Below, in pieces: positions 3,275 through 13,549 of a stretch of DNA of 64,000 nucleotides. The translations under genes were made by a program, and so were the position numbers. Below the pieces are notes generated by a model. The model made no database searches and was not told the origin of the DNA. It saw nothing but the letters and a program-made list of their open reading frames with translations. The DNA is from an uncultured Selenomonadales bacterium (GTDB lineage Bacteria > Bacillota > Negativicutes > Acidaminococcales > Acidaminococcaceae): the NCBI GenBank assembly GCA_900316935.1, contig ONEW01000002.1:1-64000 (forward strand). The letters run 5' to 3'. Numbering within the stretch: the stretch's first letter is position 1; every line of letters starts with the position of its first letter.

Positions 3275-5239
3275 TCATAAGCTCCCGGCCGTGGGTTGTC
3301 GGGACGGATTCTGCAGGCCGCCACTTTGATACAGTTCGCTGGCACCCTGGTACCACGCGATGGCCCGTTCTTCCAGGGCGGAATCCGGCGGGAGTTTTTC
3401 GTAACGGCTCTTCTGCCAGTCCGCTATGCGGAAGACGGAGGACTGTTTGCCGGGTTTCAGCATGACAAGCCGGTCCCCTTCCACATACCCCAGCGTCTGG
3501 TAGGTGCTGATGAAGGCACGTTCCTGCCCGGCAGGCACGGTGGCGATATCGCGCCCCATGAACCGCGACGTGTAGGAGATGCCCAGCATGCCCAGCAGGG
3601 TCGGCGCCAGGTCCATCTGGCTGATCAGCCGGTCGTTCACACCGGGGGCAATCAGCGCAGGGGCATAGACGAGACACGGAATATGGTACTTGTTCACGGG
3701 CAGGGCCGTTTTTCCGGCTGCCGAAGCCTGATGGTCCGCCACGATGACGAAGACCGTATTGTTGAACCACGGCCGGCGTTCCGCCTTTTTCAGGAAATCA
3801 TGGATGGCCCAGTCCGTATAACGGACACCGCCTTCCCGGCCTCCCTGCTTTGCCTGGATCCTGTCCTCAGGAAAAATGAAAGGACGGTGGTTGCTGGTCG
3901 TCATGACCATCTCGAAAGCCGGCTCTCCTTTGGCTGCATGGTCATCCATGGCCTTCAGGACCTGCTGGAACAGGGTTTCGTCTGCCACGCCCCAGACGGA
4001 TTCACAGAAAATTTCCTCCTTGGGAATGGAAAGGCGGTCCAGGACGCGGTAGCCGTTGCTGTCATAGAAGGCATTCATGTTGTCGAAATAGCCATATCCT
4101 CCGTAGAGGAAATCACTGGTGTACCCGGCTTCCTTCATGGCCCCGCCGAGCGTAGCGAGACCTTCGTAAGCAGGCCGGCGCAAGATGGACTGGCCGGGCG
4201 TCGGGGGCACGGCCAGGGATAAAGCCTCCAGTCCCCGGACCGTACGGGTACCGGTGGCATACATGCGGGAGAACATGTAGCATTGTCCGGCCAGTTCGTC
4301 AAGGTGCGGCGTCCAGTCGACGCTTCCCTTGTAGACACCCATATAATCCGTACTGAGACTTTCCACCGTAATCATGACGACGTTCGGTTTCTGCCGTGTC
4401 AGGGCGTTTTGATTGACGACCCGGCGCGTGATGTCGATCCCCTTCGTCCCCTTCCCGTCCAGAAACGTGACATTCGGGGCGGCCAGGGCCTGTTTCAGAT
4501 CCTGTTTCACCGTATCCCCGTCTTCCTGTCTGTAAAACCGCGGATAACTGATTTCATTATGAAAATAGGCGTATACGAACCCGTAGGGCCCGTTGCCCGC
4601 CAGTTCCACATTGCAGACGTTGTCGCTGACACGGTCCCGCCAAGCGTCGTCAGGCACTTTGACGGCCAGGACACACAGAACCAGGACGGCGCAGCACCCC
4701 GCCAGGGCGCCGGACCTGCCTTTGCCCTCGAAGTGCCGGGGATAACGGCGTCCCTGCAGCCAGGTCACCAGGGCTGCCGCCACGGCGATGGACGGCAGGA
4801 TGACAGGCATATTGAACGATTCCCGGATTTGGCCGATCATTTCCTGCGTGTAGATCAGGTAATCGACGGCAATGAAATTGAAGTTGGTATGGAACTCCTG
4901 CCAATACAGGTACAGGGCCACCAGCGTAAAGACCAGGAAGGCATTCAGGACAAAGGTCACGCAAAGCAGTGCGCAGCGTCCCGCTTTCCGGTTCAGCCAG
5001 CGCGTCGGCAAAAGCCAGAGCAGTATGGCCAGCGGCAGCGTAAAAAAGACGCCGGACGACGCGTCGTAGACCAGCCCTGTCAGAAAGGTGCGCAGCAGGT
5101 CTCCGGCCGCCAGCGACACCATGTCCAGCGACGTCAGGAGATTGACGGCGCGCAGAAGGGACTGCGCCGCCATATACGTCAGAAAAAAGAGGGTGAGGCA
5201 GCGGATCCTGCCTTGCCGCATCTTGTCAAACCATTGCAT
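3275..5239 (-). CDS. LTA-synthase-family phosphoglycerol transferase (654 aa)
   Basis: An integral membrane sulfatase-fold enzyme. About five hydrophobic segments fill residues 1-200, followed by an extracytoplasmic catalytic domain. Residues matching the LtaS active site are visible: Glu in NVVMITVES, the nucleophilic Thr in GTRTVRGLEAL, and Asp-His in VIVADHQAS. The family moves glycerol phosphate from phosphatidylglycerol onto an acceptor. In a diderm the acceptor is unknown and could be a glycolipid or periplasmic glucan, and phosphoethanolamine transfer is an alternative. The start is the ATG at 5239, with AAAGGAG 8 nt upstream, not the upstream in-frame ATG at 5293. It is divergent from the two-component system and shares its repeat-bearing upstream region. 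Confidence 0.85.
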   Translation of the reverse strand: MQWFDKMRQGRIRCLTLFFLTYMAAQSLLRAVNLLTSLDMVSLAAGDLLRTFLTGLVYDASSGVFFTLPLAILLWLLPTRWLNRKAGRCALLCVTFVLNAFLVFTLVALYLYWQEFHTNFNFIAVDYLIYTQEMIGQIRESFNMPVILPSIAVAAALVTWLQGRRYPRHFEGKGRSGALAGCCAVLVLCVLAVKVPDDAWRDRVSDNVCNVELAGNGPYGFVYAYFHNEISYPRFYRQEDGDTVKQDLKQALAAPNVTFLDGKGTKGIDITRRVVNQNALTRQKPNVVMITVESLSTDYMGVYKGSVDWTPHLDELAGQCYMFSRMYATGTRTVRGLEALSLAVPPTPGQSILRRPAYEGLATLGGAMKEAGYTSDFLYGGYGYFDNMNAFYDSNGYRVLDRLSIPKEEIFCESVWGVADETLFQQVLKAMDDHAAKGEPAFEMVMTTSNHRPFIFPEDRIQAKQGGREGGVRYTDWAIHDFLKKAERRPWFNNTVFVIVADHQASAAGKTALPVNKYHIPCLVYAPALIAPGVNDRLISQMDLAPTLLGMLGISYTSRFMGRDIATVPAGQERAFISTYQTLGYVEGDRLVMLKPGKQSSVFRIADWQKSRYEKLPPDSALEERAIAWYQGASELYQSGGLQNPSRQPTAGSL

Positions 5240-5312
5240 AACCGGTTCTCCTTTGCCATGTGGAATCCGGAGACTGTACCGCCTCCGTTTCATCCCATCT
5301 TAGCAAGCAGGA

Positions 5313-5373
5313 TTAAAGCCGGGACTACGGAAAATTAAACAAAGTTTAAACAGACATTAAAAAACCATAAAAC
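5313..5373. promoter_or_regulatory. Tandem 11-bp-period TTAAAC repeats: candidate response-regulator box
   Basis: TTAAAC occurs at 5335 and 5346, TTAAAA at 5357 and TAAAAC at 5368, all exactly 11 bp apart. A TTAAAG at 5313 is in the same phase, two periods upstream. Direct hexamers with a one-helical-turn period are how OmpR/PhoB-class regulators (for example Bacillus PhoP) bind. The array ends 15 bp before the -35 of the two-component promoter and lies about 75-130 bp before the divergent transferase start. Its use by the adjacent regulator is an inference. Confidence 0.6.
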
Positions 5374-5388
5374 ATTTCCCGTAGATGT

Positions 5389-5417
5389 TTGCAGTGGAGT
5401 ACAAAGATCCGTATAAT
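5389..5417 (+). promoter_or_regulatory. Sigma-A promoter of the two-component system
   Basis: TTGCAG (5389-5394), a 17-bp spacer and a perfect TATAAT (5412-5417) give a strong vegetative promoter. The predicted leader of about 95 nt contains a short GGGCC/GGCCC hairpin followed by TTTT just before the ribosome binding site, which might attenuate or mask translation. The longer open frame beginning at 5385 would overlap this promoter and is unlikely to be translated. Confidence 0.75.
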
Positions 5418-5516
5418 TTTAGAAGGAGGGGACAAAAAATACTCCCGGCCGGGTACTTCCCGGAGCTTTCTGAAAAAGGTTTGATGGGGCCATCGGCCCT
5501 TTTCCGAGGTAGAGCT

Positions 5517-6983
5517 ATGAACATCAAGACCCGCCTGATTCTGTCGCATATCCTGACCTTCTTCATTCCCATCGTCATGACCTTCTTCGTCTTCCTCCTG
5601 TGCGCCGGAGGCCTGGCCGTCTTCGCACACAGCGGGAACCATATTTATGCCGAGAACGTCAACCAGTTCCAACGTATCACCATGGTCCTCCACCACGTGG
5701 TGTTCCGCAACCTGCGCAACCATCCTGACGACAATCTGTCCGGCATGTGGCTCATGGGTCTGCTGGATCCGGACTACAACTGCATCATGGTCAGCCGGGA
5801 AGGACAGGCCGTCTACACATACGGGAATCTGTCCCTGGCAGAAGGGATGACACCGGAAATAAAGGAAACCATGGCGTCCCTGGAACAGGGTTCCAGCGGA
5901 GTACGCTACGCTTCGTCCCAAAAGCAGAACTACTTTATGGAAAAACAGGTTGTAAAAGGACGGGTATATTCGCTTCACTATTTTAACCGGATTGCACCAC
6001 CTGCTTCGGACGAGGTCTTCGAACACGCCCTGCATATCACGGAACTCGTCTGCGCCCTTTCACTCCTGGCCTTCATCCTGCTCTCCAGCTGGTTCCTGTC
6101 CCGCTTTGTGCTGCATCACATCATCCCGCCCCTGAAAGAACTGCAGCACGCCTCGGAGCGCATCCAGGAAGGAGACCTGGGTGTACGCATCGGCCACGGC
6201 CGGCAGGATGAGTTCCGCCCCGTGGTCGACGCCTTCAACCTCATGGCCGTGAAACTGCAGGATTCCCTGAATGAGCGGGAGCGGCAGGAAGAAAACCGCA
6301 AAGAGCTGATCGCCAGCATCTCGCACGACATCCGTACACCTCTGACCGCCATCAAGGCCTATGTCGAAGGACTGAAGGACAACGTGGCCTCGACGCCAGA
6401 AAAGCGGAAACAATATCTGGACGTCATCGACCATAAGACGGAAGATTTGAACCGCATGGTGGAACAACTCTTCCTGCTCTCCAAAATCGACCTGGGGGAA
6501 CGGGCCGTTCCCATGAAACTGCTGGACCTTGGACAAACACTGCGCACCATTGCCTCCGAAAACGACCTGCACTGGCAGCAGGCCGGCGCCGCCGTAAAGA
6601 TGGCCGTGCCGGAAACACCCGTTTTCATCCGGGGCAGCACGATGCTGCTGGAACGGATTCTGCAGAACCTGGTTTCCAACAGTGCCAAATACAGGACATT
6701 GCCGGAAGCGGAGGTCCATTGCCATCTTGCCGTAGAAGACGGACGCGCGGTACTGCACGTATGGGACAATGGGCCCGGGGTCCCGGAACAACTGCTGCAC
6801 CGGCTGACGGATCCCTTCTTCCGGACGGATAAGGCCCGCTCGCACACAGCGGACGGAAGCGGCATCGGCCTGACTATTGTGGCCCGGTCCATGGCTGTCA
6901 TGCAGGGAACGCTGCAAATTGAAAACGTGACGCCGAATGGGTTGTCCTTCACGATGACGTTCCCATTGGCTAAGGAGGAATGA
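5517..6983 (+). CDS. Sensor histidine kinase (488 aa)
   Basis: The domain order is complete. A membrane segment spans about residues 8-32 and an extracytoplasmic sensor region about 33-175. A second membrane segment (about 180-200) is followed by a HAMP linker and HisKA with His270 in SISHDIRTPL. HATPase_c shows the N box NLVSNSAKY, DNGPGVP and GSGIGLTIV. It autophosphorylates and passes phosphate to the response regulator encoded just downstream, whose start overlaps or abuts its stop. The ATG at 5517 is preceded by GAGGTAGAGCT. The signal is unknown; the context (LTA-synthase-like enzyme, PAP2 phosphatase) suggests envelope or phosphate status. Confidence 0.9.
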   Translation: MNIKTRLILSHILTFFIPIVMTFFVFLLCAGGLAVFAHSGNHIYAENVNQFQRITMVLHHVVFRNLRNHPDDNLSGMWLMGLLDPDYNCIMVSREGQAVYTYGNLSLAEGMTPEIKETMASLEQGSSGVRYASSQKQNYFMEKQVVKGRVYSLHYFNRIAPPASDEVFEHALHITELVCALSLLAFILLSSWFLSRFVLHHIIPPLKELQHASERIQEGDLGVRIGHGRQDEFRPVVDAFNLMAVKLQDSLNERERQEENRKELIASISHDIRTPLTAIKAYVEGLKDNVASTPEKRKQYLDVIDHKTEDLNRMVEQLFLLSKIDLGERAVPMKLLDLGQTLRTIASENDLHWQQAGAAVKMAVPETPVFIRGSTMLLERILQNLVSNSAKYRTLPEAEVHCHLAVEDGRAVLHVWDNGPGVPEQLLHRLTDPFFRTDKARSHTADGSGIGLTIVARSMAVMQGTLQIENVTPNGLSFTMTFPLAKEE

Positions 6984-6985
6984 CG

Positions 6986-7672
6986 ATGAAAGACATGATT
7001 CTGATTATTGAAGACGATAAAGACATTGCGGCCATTGAGAAGGATTATATGGAAATCAACGGATACGGCGCCGTCATCAAGGAAGACGGCACCGAAGGCA
7101 TGGAAGCGGCCCTGACCGGTCATTACAGCCTCATCCTTCTCGATGTGATGCTGCCCGGCATGGACGGATTTGAAATCTGCCGCAAGATCCGGGACAAGAT
7201 TGATACGCCGATCCTTATGGTGACGGCCCGCAATACGGACATCGACAAAATCCGGGGCCTGGGCCTCGGAGCAGACGACTACATTGAAAAACCCTTCTCC
7301 CCTGCCGTCCTGGCAGCCAAAGTGAAATCACAGCTTGCGCAATACAGACGGCTGCGTGGAACGAAGGAATTGCGGCGCATCTCCCTCGGCGGCCTCACCA
7401 TTGAACCGGACACCCGCCGGGTCTTTGTCGGCGACCAGGAACTGTCCCTGCCGAACAAGGAATTCGAGCTGCTGGCATTCCTCATGGAAAACCCGGGCAT
7501 CGTCTTCAGCCGGGAAACCTTGTATACCCGCATCTGGGGCATGGATTCCCTAGGCACGACGGACACGATTCCCGTCCATATCAACCGCCTGCGTGAAGCC
7601 GTGGAGGAAAACCCGTCCAAACCACGGCACCTGCTCACTGTCTGGGGCGTCGGCTATAAATTCCAGCCGTAA
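6986..7672 (+). CDS. OmpR/PhoB-family response regulator (228 aa)
   Basis: The receiver domain (1-120) has the acidic pair EDD near residue 10, the phosphoacceptor Asp53 in LLDVMLPGMDG, Thr in MVTARN and the conserved Lys in YIEKPFSP. A winged-helix trans_reg_C domain follows (about 130-228), with LPNKEFELLAFL and a recognition region ending DTIPVHINRLR. AGGAGG lies 7 nt before the ATG at 6986; an ATG at 6980 overlapping the kinase stop is too close to it. OmpR-class regulators bind direct repeats spaced by about one helical turn, matching the arrays at 5313-5373 and 8501-8527. Confidence 0.92.
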   Translation: MKDMILIIEDDKDIAAIEKDYMEINGYGAVIKEDGTEGMEAALTGHYSLILLDVMLPGMDGFEICRKIRDKIDTPILMVTARNTDIDKIRGLGLGADDYIEKPFSPAVLAAKVKSQLAQYRRLRGTKELRRISLGGLTIEPDTRRVFVGDQELSLPNKEFELLAFLMENPGIVFSRETLYTRIWGMDSLGTTDTIPVHINRLREAVEENPSKPRHLLTVWGVGYKFQP

Positions 7673-7798: not shown

Positions 7799-8419
7799 TC
7801 AGCGGACACGCCGGCCGGAGAGTGGCTGGAGCGGCGCATTTTCCAGGTATCGGCCGGCAAGGTGCTGCATGGCCGGGACAATCTTCCCCGCCAGAATCGC
7901 GGCGCCGCAGGCCAGCAGGATGCCGCCCGCCACGTCACTGGGATAATGGACGCCCAGATAAAGGCGGGAAAACGACGCCATAACTGCCAGCACCAGAGCC
8001 GGTATACCAAAACGCCGTGGCAGGAAACGGTACAGCACCAGGGCGATGGCGAAGGCCGCTGCCGTATGGCCGGACGGGAAAGAGGACCCGCCTGCATGCA
8101 CGACCGGAATCAGGTCGTAAAAGGCCTCGTACGGGCGGGGACGCAGAATCAGGTGTTTCAGGATTTCCTTGCCGGCCAGGGCCAGCAGAAGGGCTGTGCC
8201 GGCATACAGGGCGGCCTGCCGGCCCTGCTTCCTGTTCCGCAGGATCAGCCAGGCGGCCAGGAAAGCGAACACCCAGAACACACCGTTGGTAACGACGTTC
8301 CAGAAGATATCGCCGCCAGGTGTACGCAGGTTCTCCTGTATCCATAACAGGACGGAATAATCCCCTTCCGTAAGTTCCGTTGCAAAATACATAGCCGCTG
8401 CATTCATTGCTGAAATCAT
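7799..8419 (-). CDS. PAP2-family membrane phosphatase (206 aa)
   Basis: All three PAP2 signatures are present: KHLILRPRP (KxxxxxxRP), FPSGHTAA and SRLYLGVHYPSD. Five to six hydrophobic segments alternate around them. Members are extracytoplasmic-face lipid phosphatases, typically undecaprenyl-diphosphatase (BcrC-like) or phosphatidylglycerophosphatase B-like, and the sequence alone does not decide between them. The context (ArnT/GT2 pair, phosphoglycerol transferase) favours recycling of a lipid carrier. AAGGAG lies 11 nt before the ATG at 8419, and a GTG at 8428 is too close to it. Its upstream region carries TTAAAC-type repeats like those before the two-component system. Confidence 0.88.
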   Translation of the reverse strand: MISAMNAAAMYFATELTEGDYSVLLWIQENLRTPGGDIFWNVVTNGVFWVFAFLAAWLILRNRKQGRQAALYAGTALLLALAGKEILKHLILRPRPYEAFYDLIPVVHAGGSSFPSGHTAAAFAIALVLYRFLPRRFGIPALVLAVMASFSRLYLGVHYPSDVAGGILLACGAAILAGKIVPAMQHLAGRYLENAPLQPLSGRRVR

Positions 8420-8500
8420 GATGGTCACCGCTCCTTTGTTTGCTGCCTTTACAATAACAGGCAGGTTTAAGGAATGTGTAACCGGAGTCTTGCGGCGGAA

Positions 8501-8527
8501 TTAAGAAATTTTAAATAATGTTTAAAC
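8501..8527. promoter_or_regulatory. TTAAAN tandem repeats upstream of the PAP2 gene
   Basis: TTAAGA (8501), TTAAAT (8511) and TTAAAC (8522) are spaced 10 and 11 bp, and the 10-mer GTTTAAACAG here (8520-8529) is identical to 5344-5353. The array overlaps the stop codon of the upstream sfsA-like gene and lies about 80-110 bp before the PAP2 start. It looks like a second, weaker copy of the candidate regulator box between the LTA-synthase-like gene and the histidine kinase. Confidence 0.45.
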
Positions 8528-11244: not shown

Positions 11245-12804
11245 TCAGGGTTCGCTGGCAAACAGGCAGATGCCGTCCTGCTCCTTGACGAGCCGCCAGT
11301 TTTCGCCGCCCATGAGGTCCTTCTGCTTGCGGTACATGTACTGCCGCATCAGGATGTATTTGGGCCGGCCGTCGGCTTTCAGTTTCGCGAGGGTCTCCTC
11401 GTTGTTCGTATCGGCTTCCAGTCCGGGAATATCCGTGTAGAGCATGAAGCCGGGCCGCAGCTGCTTATCGATGTAGAGCACGCGCTGCGGTTCCGCAGCC
11501 AGCGTCTGATACTGCAGAGCCATGGACTTGACGCTGAACCGGTCCTGCGCCAGGGGCATGAGTACCACGAAGGCCATGACCATGGTGAAGAGGCCCGTCG
11601 CCACATGCAGCCAGGCTCCCGCCTCCCCCTTCTTCCGGAAGAGGAGGACGAAGAAGACGGCGAGGCCCAGGACGATGGTAGCGATGCCGAGGACCATCCC
11701 TCCGGAAGCCAGTTCCGGCATGGACTTGCCCCCGGCTATCCACCCGGCCCCCAGGAGCAGGAACAGGATCAGGCTGCCGATGGCCCACGATTTAAAGGTT
11801 CCGTGCGCAAGTCCGAGCATGCGGTCGATGTTCCAGCCGATAAGGCCGGCCAGGGCCGGCGACAAGACGAGCATGTAGGAAACCTGCTTCGTCTTCGCCA
11901 CGCTGAAGAAGAGGAAGACGAAGGCGGCCCATACTTCGAGGAAGAGGAGCACATTCCGCTTGTCCCCGGCTTTCACGATGCCGTTCTTGATGGATTGGAT
12001 CAAAAGTCCTGTCCAGGGGAACATGCCGAGGAGGATGACCGGCAGATAGAACCACCAGTGCATACGCGACGGATGGAGCGGCTTTGCGAACCGCTGCATG
12101 TTATGGAACCCGAGGAAATCCTGGATGAACTGCCAGCCATGGTTCTGGTACATGTAGATGTACCAGGGGGAACCGATGAGGGCCGTCAGAATCAGGCCGG
12201 GAATGACGTGCATGCGGAGCATTTCCTTCAGGTTGCGTGTCAGCAGCAGATAGCAGAAGATGATGCCGCCGGGAAAGACGACCCCGATGGGTCCCTTCGT
12301 CATGACGGCCAATCCGCAGCACACATACATGAGCCAGTATTTCCGGTGTAAAAAGCAGAGCAGCGAGGCAGTCAGGAAGAACAACAGCGTCGAATCGGTG
12401 ACGGATGCCTTCCCCATGTACATGAGCATGACCGACGTACCCATGACCATGGCGGACCAGAAGGCGGCTCGCGCATTCAGGAGCCGCTTGAACGAACCGT
12501 AGGTCAGAAGGACGCTGAACACGGCCATAAGGGAAGCCGGAATCCGCGCCGCGAATTCGGAAAAGCCGCCGCAGATTTTCAGGGAAGCCACGACAAGCCA
12601 GTAGAAGATCGGCGGTTTGTCATACCAGAACTCATTGTAGATACGGGGCGACAGATAGTCGTGGAACCGGATCATCTCTTTCGCTGTTTCAGCATAGACC
12701 GGTTCATCGGGATCGAGCATGGCCACGCCGCCGATACCGCAGAGGATGTTGAAGGCGACGATGGCGGCCAGGAGCCAGAAGGCTTTACGCGATGTATAGT
12801 CCAA
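11245..12804 (-). CDS. ArnT-like GT39-family membrane glycosyltransferase (519 aa)
   Basis: A polytopic membrane protein (about 10-12 hydrophobic segments) with a short periplasmic C-terminal domain. The N-terminal loop LDPDEPVYAETAKEM carries the acidic motif of GT-C enzymes, followed by YDKPPIFYW, the signature of ArnT/PMT_2 proteins. These transfer a sugar from undecaprenyl phosphate to lipid A or another periplasmic acceptor. The donor is probably made by the GT2 enzyme encoded 41 bp downstream. The start is TTG at 12804, with AAAGGA 7 nt upstream. The true sugar and acceptor cannot be read from sequence, and aminoarabinose genes are absent here. Confidence 0.85.
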   Translation of the reverse strand: MDYTSRKAFWLLAAIVAFNILCGIGGVAMLDPDEPVYAETAKEMIRFHDYLSPRIYNEFWYDKPPIFYWLVVASLKICGGFSEFAARIPASLMAVFSVLLTYGSFKRLLNARAAFWSAMVMGTSVMLMYMGKASVTDSTLLFFLTASLLCFLHRKYWLMYVCCGLAVMTKGPIGVVFPGGIIFCYLLLTRNLKEMLRMHVIPGLILTALIGSPWYIYMYQNHGWQFIQDFLGFHNMQRFAKPLHPSRMHWWFYLPVILLGMFPWTGLLIQSIKNGIVKAGDKRNVLLFLEVWAAFVFLFFSVAKTKQVSYMLVLSPALAGLIGWNIDRMLGLAHGTFKSWAIGSLILFLLLGAGWIAGGKSMPELASGGMVLGIATIVLGLAVFFVLLFRKKGEAGAWLHVATGLFTMVMAFVVLMPLAQDRFSVKSMALQYQTLAAEPQRVLYIDKQLRPGFMLYTDIPGLEADTNNEETLAKLKADGRPKYILMRQYMYRKQKDLMGGENWRLVKEQDGICLFASEP

Positions 12805-13466: not shown

Positions 13467-13549
13467 GGTCCCCACCCTCCTTCAGTATACCCCGCAAAGA
13501 TAAACTTTCCTTGAATTTATCAGGACGGCCGGAGCTGCCAGGACCCGTT

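Follow-up and report, generated by a model that had tools for sequence, protein, structure and literature searches.

The window analysed here is the whole stretch of 64,000 nucleotides, and it belongs to the genome denoted G000, which is compared below with those of two sister species, denoted G008 and G009. In the window, an array of hexamers is located between a two-component system on the plus strand and a divergent gene on the minus strand, and a second array is located upstream of a PAP2 gene on the minus strand. The features are as follows.

3275..5239, minus strand: LTA-synthase/OpgB-like membrane protein with the sulfatase fold (ltaS-like gene), the main predicted target (Pfam Sulfatase, 3.1e-42)
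5297..5305, minus strand: extended -10 TGCTAAGAT of the ltaS-like gene, from the sequence and the variants in relatives
5313..5318, minus strand: half-site CTTTAA nearest the promoter, in phase with the array at an offset of 22 bp, with exactly 10 nt between it and the -10 downstream
5335..5373, minus strand: four half-sites in 11-bp phase (GTTTTA 5373-5368, TTTTAA 5362-5357, GTTTAA 5351-5346, GTTTAA 5340-5335)
5389..5417, plus strand: promoter TTGCAG (5389-5394)-N17-TATAAT (5412-5417) of the kinase-regulator operon, kept in G008 and G009
5517..6983, plus strand: sensor histidine kinase, HAMP-HisKA-HATPase_c by domain matches
6980..7672, plus strand: response regulator of the OmpR class, for which binding to the array is predicted (Pfam, NCBIfam; clade-wide co-occurrence with the array)
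7799..8428, minus strand: PAP2 protein, undecaprenyl-diphosphatase-like, a predicted target (Pfam PAP2, 1.9e-23)
8451..8456, minus strand: -10 TATTGT (8456-8451) of the PAP2 gene in the extended -10 context TGTTATTGT, from the sequence
8467..8472, minus strand: half-site CCTTAA nearest the promoter of the PAP2 gene, in phase with the second array at an offset of exactly 33 bp, with 10 nt between it and the -10
8500..8527, minus strand: second array, upstream of the PAP2 gene, reading ATTAAG-N5-TTAAAT-N5-TTAAAC on the plus strand and conserved in G008 and G009
11245..12804, minus strand: ArnT-like glycosyltransferase, upstream of the PAP2 gene on the same strand (NCBIfam ArnT, 9.2e-41, below the cut-off; Pfam PMT_2)
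13484..13516, minus strand: tentative weak site ATTCAA-N5-GTTTAT-N10-TATACT, upstream of the LUD-domain, arnT-like, GT2, sfsA and PAP2 genes

The minus-strand genes downstream of the two-component system are PAP2, sfsA, a GT2 gene resembling ArnC/PgfS, the ArnT-like gene and the LUD-domain gene. For the ltaS-like protein, the secure assignment from its sequence is to the sulfatase fold only; it stays below the equivalog cut-offs of NCBIfam, with 45.9 versus 970 bits for LtaS and 53.6 versus 572 bits for phosphoglycerol transferase I (OpgB), and its best match in the PDB is 3lxq (VP1736). The PAP2 protein is SepP/YbjG-like in NCBIfam, under the cut-offs.

By its domains, a receiver (PF00072, 2.8e-25) and a Trans_reg_C winged helix (PF00486, 5.5e-26), the product of 6980..7672 is a member of the OmpR/PhoB class. 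It reaches the cut-off of none of the listed NCBIfam models: VanR, YycF and MtrA are the best matches, every one under its cut-off, PhoP is missing among the 25 best matches, and PmrA scores 129.8 bits with a cut-off of 330. The nearest solved structures are those of RegX3 (the best) and MtrA, with the BasR structures ranking lower. By the tests made, the regulator would therefore be placed outside the PhoP and PmrA families, though it appears to work like them. At least eight further OmpR-class matches are present elsewhere in the genome. It is also noted that the leader of the kinase operon (5440-5510) contains the inverted repeats CCCGGCCGGG and GGGGCCATCGGCCC, which are poorly conserved in G008.

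The repeat array and its orientation

The first-pass annotation described four phased TTAAAC hexamers and one more in phase with them. The positions, the 11-bp period and the phase of these hexamers hold, with the exact hexamer being present in only two of the five units (5335 and 5346) and near-matches in the other three (TTAAAA at 5357, TAAAAC at 5368 and TTAAAG at 5313); the unit at 5313 lies two 11-bp turns ahead of that at 5335, with no match at 5324. Over the four consecutive units, 22 of the 24 letters agree with the consensus, a score that was never reached when the intergenic region was shuffled 2000 times with its dinucleotides preserved (mean 13.3, maximum 19), while the real intergenic sequence at periods other than 11 gives 13-15 matched letters. 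A three-unit scan of the window with at most three mismatches returns this array as the single match, where 0.00 are expected. The array is thus real and lies far above chance.

Moreover, the array at 5335..5373 is kept in both sister species with diverged spacers, and so is the half-site CTTTAA. When G000 is compared with G008 over the three main arrays, differences fall on 7 of 60 positions within hexamers and on 16 of 35 within spacers (p=0.0004), and such conserved hexamers among diverged spacers are the pattern expected for a binding site. The lack of conservation in relatives, which the earlier annotation had named as evidence against its reading, is thus the opposite of what was found.

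On the minus strand the repeats take the form GTTTAA-N5-GTTTAA and point toward the ltaS-like gene. The promoter of this gene has no recognisable -35, and its -10 hexamer is TAAGAT (5302-5297), with TAAGAT in G009 and TAGAAT in G008. With the minus strand giving the functional orientation, the array is best explained as a site for activating the ltaS-like gene rather than the kinase promoter. The orientation toward the kinase promoter read before is hence reversed, and the unit at 5313 becomes the promoter-proximal box of the ltaS-like gene, whereas the proposed control of the divergent phosphoglycerol transferase turns out to be the best-supported part of the earlier reading, with a minus-strand unit 10 nt from the -10 of that gene. 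The kinase-regulator promoter that had been placed 15 bp past 5373 is indeed present; relative to it the array is reverse-oriented, with 38 nt between its end and the -10.

The PAP2 promoter repeats the ltaS-like layout, with 11-bp units of which the last is 10 nt from the -10. In the relatives the half-site CCTTAA of this promoter is kept as CCTTAA or CCTTAT, and the -10 as TATTGT or TATGGT. The ArnT-like homologues in relatives are also preceded by an array. At the weak site at 13484-13516 there is one strong unit, GTTTAT; the layout is kept in G008, and G009 is not alignable there.

Occurrence of the layout across genomes and genes

In the loci around orthologous regulators, the layout was given a score that combines the three best-matching units out of four, at an 11-bp period, with a -10 located 10 nt past the final unit, and a score of 20 or more was taken as a pass. 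For 21 orthologue loci, scored with a matrix drawn after some of them had been seen, the mean is 22.9 at period 11 and spacer 10, as compared with 12.7-14.1 at other periods (7-15) and 11.9-16.6 at other spacers (4-17). By contrast, the loci of 68 less related OmpR-class regulators have a mean of 11.5, and none reaches 20. Because of the way the matrix had been drawn, it was frozen and then applied to 40 loci fetched later, several of which come from genomes of one genus, with the result that 24 of the 40 pass at 11/10 (mean 21.4), whereas 0-3 pass when the period is changed and 1-9 when the spacer is changed. Among the 16 loci under the threshold, some show the layout by eye with weaker units, a post hoc observation. 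The assignment of the repeats to the adjacent regulator, proposed from the first, is thus borne out by their co-occurrence with its orthologues in many genomes, together with the conservation of the hexamers.

In the more distant genomes the layout is found at PAP2, ArnT-like, flippase-DUF368-kinase-regulator and other genes. The genes downstream of the layout are mostly envelope genes (PAP2 undecaprenyl-pyrophosphatase-like, ArnT-like, ltaS-like and DUF368), and in the held-out loci the direct neighbours that can be named are mostly PAP2, ArnT-like or an unnamed protein of 210-220 residues. In some of the closest relatives (e.g. L306 and L307), an ArnT-like gene takes the divergent position held here by the ltaS-like gene, and the arrangement by eye is two units, a skip and one unit, as in the window. 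The unnamed protein of about 210-220 residues (MNKLKxxYDVV...) has no Pfam match and is encoded beside the two-component system with an array upstream (L040 7269-7931, L041 5988-6614, L042 7777-8406, L344 3094-3750 and L345 7177-7824).

The regulator clade is present in 115 of 300 sampled genomes of the class. In the first set, the array-bearing loci encode the recognition helix VHI-[N/Q/G/S]-[R/K], and no array accompanies the regulators with K or R in place of N, Q, G or S (those of Lachnospiraceae and a few others); in the held-out set there is one regulator with K/R, and its locus is likewise negative. As the groups with and without the array are related by descent, this correlation is suggestive only. 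Lachnospiraceae regulators with VHIK and no array nearby are those of L051, L052, L053, L055 and L072, and such members of the clade may use a different half-site.

A genome-wide motif scan, suggested in the first-pass annotation, gives a single strong three-unit match besides the array in the window within the assembly of 1.95 Mb. This match, CTAAACAATCCTTAAACAAAGTTTAAAC, lies on another contig directly upstream of the Shine-Dalgarno sequence of a gene that we tentatively call lpxT-like by resemblance. The protein has a PAP2 match just under the Pfam cut-off. Its array has 17 identical bases in common with that in the window and is positioned downstream of a conserved extended -10 and ahead of the start codon, which suggests repression. 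In G008 an array is present at the equivalent position with different spacers, and in G009 it is degenerate. In lpxT-bearing relatives that lack this regulator there is no array at this place, the 11-12 of 18 matching letters being at the shuffle level, and these relatives still possess other OmpR regulators.

The looser part of the scan was less productive: patterns of two units, or with many mismatches, are no more frequent in the genome than the reversed-pattern control. Single weak sites therefore mean little, and they are used here only together with conservation and position. One such case is a two-unit island upstream of bacA, which is present in all three species (G000, G008 and G009) within otherwise diverged sequence; a single GTTTAA unit lies ahead of bacA in G025.

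Two further elements were observed. The conserved array-like site AGAAACGAAGMCTAAACATTTCCTTAAG (L192 7807-7834, L193 8951-8978) precedes a DUF368 gene in G008, the product of which is presumably undecaprenyl-phosphate translocase-like; DUF368 was rejected as a target in the genome of the window, where the gene is absent although the array-like site remains. An element of roughly the form GTTTACRGTATGATTRTAAYACTATTYTACCAY is conserved in all three sister species (L248, L249 and G000:C38:13841-13873) and looks like the operator of a different regulator.

Comparison with known systems and alternative explanations

The closest known arrangement would be the Salmonella PhoP box, (T/G)GTTTA-N5-(T/G)GTTTA, rather than the Bacillus PhoP box. 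The Salmonella box lies about 12 nt from the -10 and overlaps the -35, and it works in one orientation at a given place, with the reverse box being active at 27, 37 or 48 nt (PMC3335776). Direct GTTTA repeats with an 11-bp period are common to the architecture I promoters of Salmonella and E. coli PhoP and to the promoters described here (PMC3335776); in both, the box replaces the -35 at about 11-12 nt from the -10 and the orientation matters, the spacing here being 10 nt after the hexamer, i.e. 11 nt after GTTTA. The promoters here differ in the number of half-sites, which is three or four with a gap of one unit in many cases, and in their hosts, which are diderm Firmicutes and clostridia. 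The agreement in geometry supports a regulator that works like PhoP and not membership of the PhoP regulon. The enterobacterial PhoP regulon includes lipid A and envelope modification.

There is also a likeness to the PmrA/BasR regulon, where activation of PmrA in E. coli induces ArnT and EptA while LpxT is inhibited (PMC2904496): the targets here include an ArnT-like protein and a sulfatase-fold phospho-transferase, with the lpxT-like gene apparently regulated oppositely. Unlike in that system, the effect on lpxT would here be transcriptional, from an array between promoter and start codon, and the half-site is GTTTAA. VanR, YycF, RegX3 and MtrA are the closest response regulators by sequence, and their NCBIfam models score far under the cut-offs here. 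In the open-access literature searched, no paper describing this motif or regulon was found; the mode of action is of a known kind, whereas the same searches gave no account of the regulator clade, the box, the fixed geometry or the combination of targets.

The boxes of Bacillus subtilis PhoP, which the first-pass annotation had taken as the model, are of the TT(A/T/C)ACA type. They share with the array an OmpR-class regulator and 11-bp direct repeats in several copies, and differ from it in the half-site (here TTAAAC/GTTTAA), the orientation and the apparent class of targets, those found being envelope rather than phosphate-starvation genes. This box was rejected as the best model, since the geometry that recurs, and its orientation, suit the opposite strand. 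It is likewise unlikely that the array is mainly autoregulatory for the plus-strand kinase-regulator promoter in the manner of such boxes. That the array stops 15 bp ahead of a good promoter conserved in the sister species would agree with this, as would the activity of reverse Salmonella PhoP boxes at about 37 nt from the -10 (PMC3335776), with 38 nt here; however, the kinase promoter already has a -35 and a -10, the strongest recurring geometry faces the other strand, and the other clear targets (PAP2 and ArnT-like) are envelope genes in the GTTTAA orientation, with no obvious phosphate-starvation gene among them.

That a different OmpR-class regulator, e.g. a master regulator of the PhoP/WalR type, binds the array with the neighbouring regulator being incidental is still less probable. 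The genome has OmpR-class candidates enough for it, and 11-bp repeats are bound by many members of the class, but the arrays track this one clade across families, with 0 of 68 loci beside less related regulators having them; moreover, lpxT lacks the array in relatives without this regulator despite their other OmpR regulators, and in the closer set the presence of the array also tracks the recognition-helix residue. Least probable, to the point of being hardly credible, is that the units are an AT-rich UP element or bent DNA, with A-tracts in helical phase, boosting the promoters with no dedicated regulator: the AT-richness of the units and a phasing close to the helical repeat would agree with this, but the period is 11 and the signal drops sharply at 10 and 12, the distance to the -10 is exact, many units keep their terminal G/C and a single regulator clade is tracked.

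Proposed mechanism and its meaning

Based on these results, the reading we prefer, and consider highly probable, is that the array is the tandem site of the adjacent regulator, which activates the ltaS-like gene and further envelope targets. Judged from the sequences, the array would represent the binding sites of an undescribed clade of OmpR-class regulators working like enterobacterial PhoP/PmrA. The phosphorylated response regulator encoded alongside would bind the array, its dimers being arranged head-to-tail on the minus-strand GTTTAA half-sites 11 bp apart, with CTTTAA (5318-5313) substituting for the missing -35. With the last half-site in the place of the -35, class II activation of the ltaS/opgB-like gene is expected, in which the bound regulator would recruit RNA polymerase.

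Activation by this regulator is also predicted for the PAP2 gene at 8428 and, probably, for bacA elsewhere in the genome, and the regulator would block the lpxT-like gene by occupying the array between promoter and start codon. As the array lies 38 nt before the kinase -10 and reverse boxes of Salmonella PhoP are active at such distances, autoregulation of the kinase-regulator operon is plausible, the reverse-oriented array possibly serving self-tuning.

PAP2 and BacA proteins recycle undecaprenyl pyrophosphate. The same compound is the phosphate donor of LpxT (PMC2229476), and the theme of the regulon would thus be envelope phosphate chemistry and undecaprenyl-phosphate supply. Physiologically, we infer that the system may adjust the phosphate groups of the envelope and the recycling of undecaprenyl phosphate under envelope stress.

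An apparently undescribed two-component system thereby gains a predicted DNA code, a promoter geometry and a target list, and it is a system present in over a third of the sampled genomes of the class (diderm Firmicutes, presumably with many gut and oral bacteria among them). Through the charge of the outer membrane and the supply of undecaprenyl phosphate it may be relevant to the response of diderm Firmicutes to polymyxins, bile or bacitracin. Finally, we put forward, tentatively and as somewhat less likely than not, that diderm Firmicutes own a PhoP/PmrA-like envelope-charge system that evolved from a separate regulator clade. A single regulator would there switch on ArnT-like and sulfatase-fold enzymes and those that recycle undecaprenyl pyrophosphate, and repress an lpxT-like gene. 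If this is true, the phosphate of undecaprenyl pyrophosphate would be steered off lipid A and the carrier lipid recycled under envelope attack.
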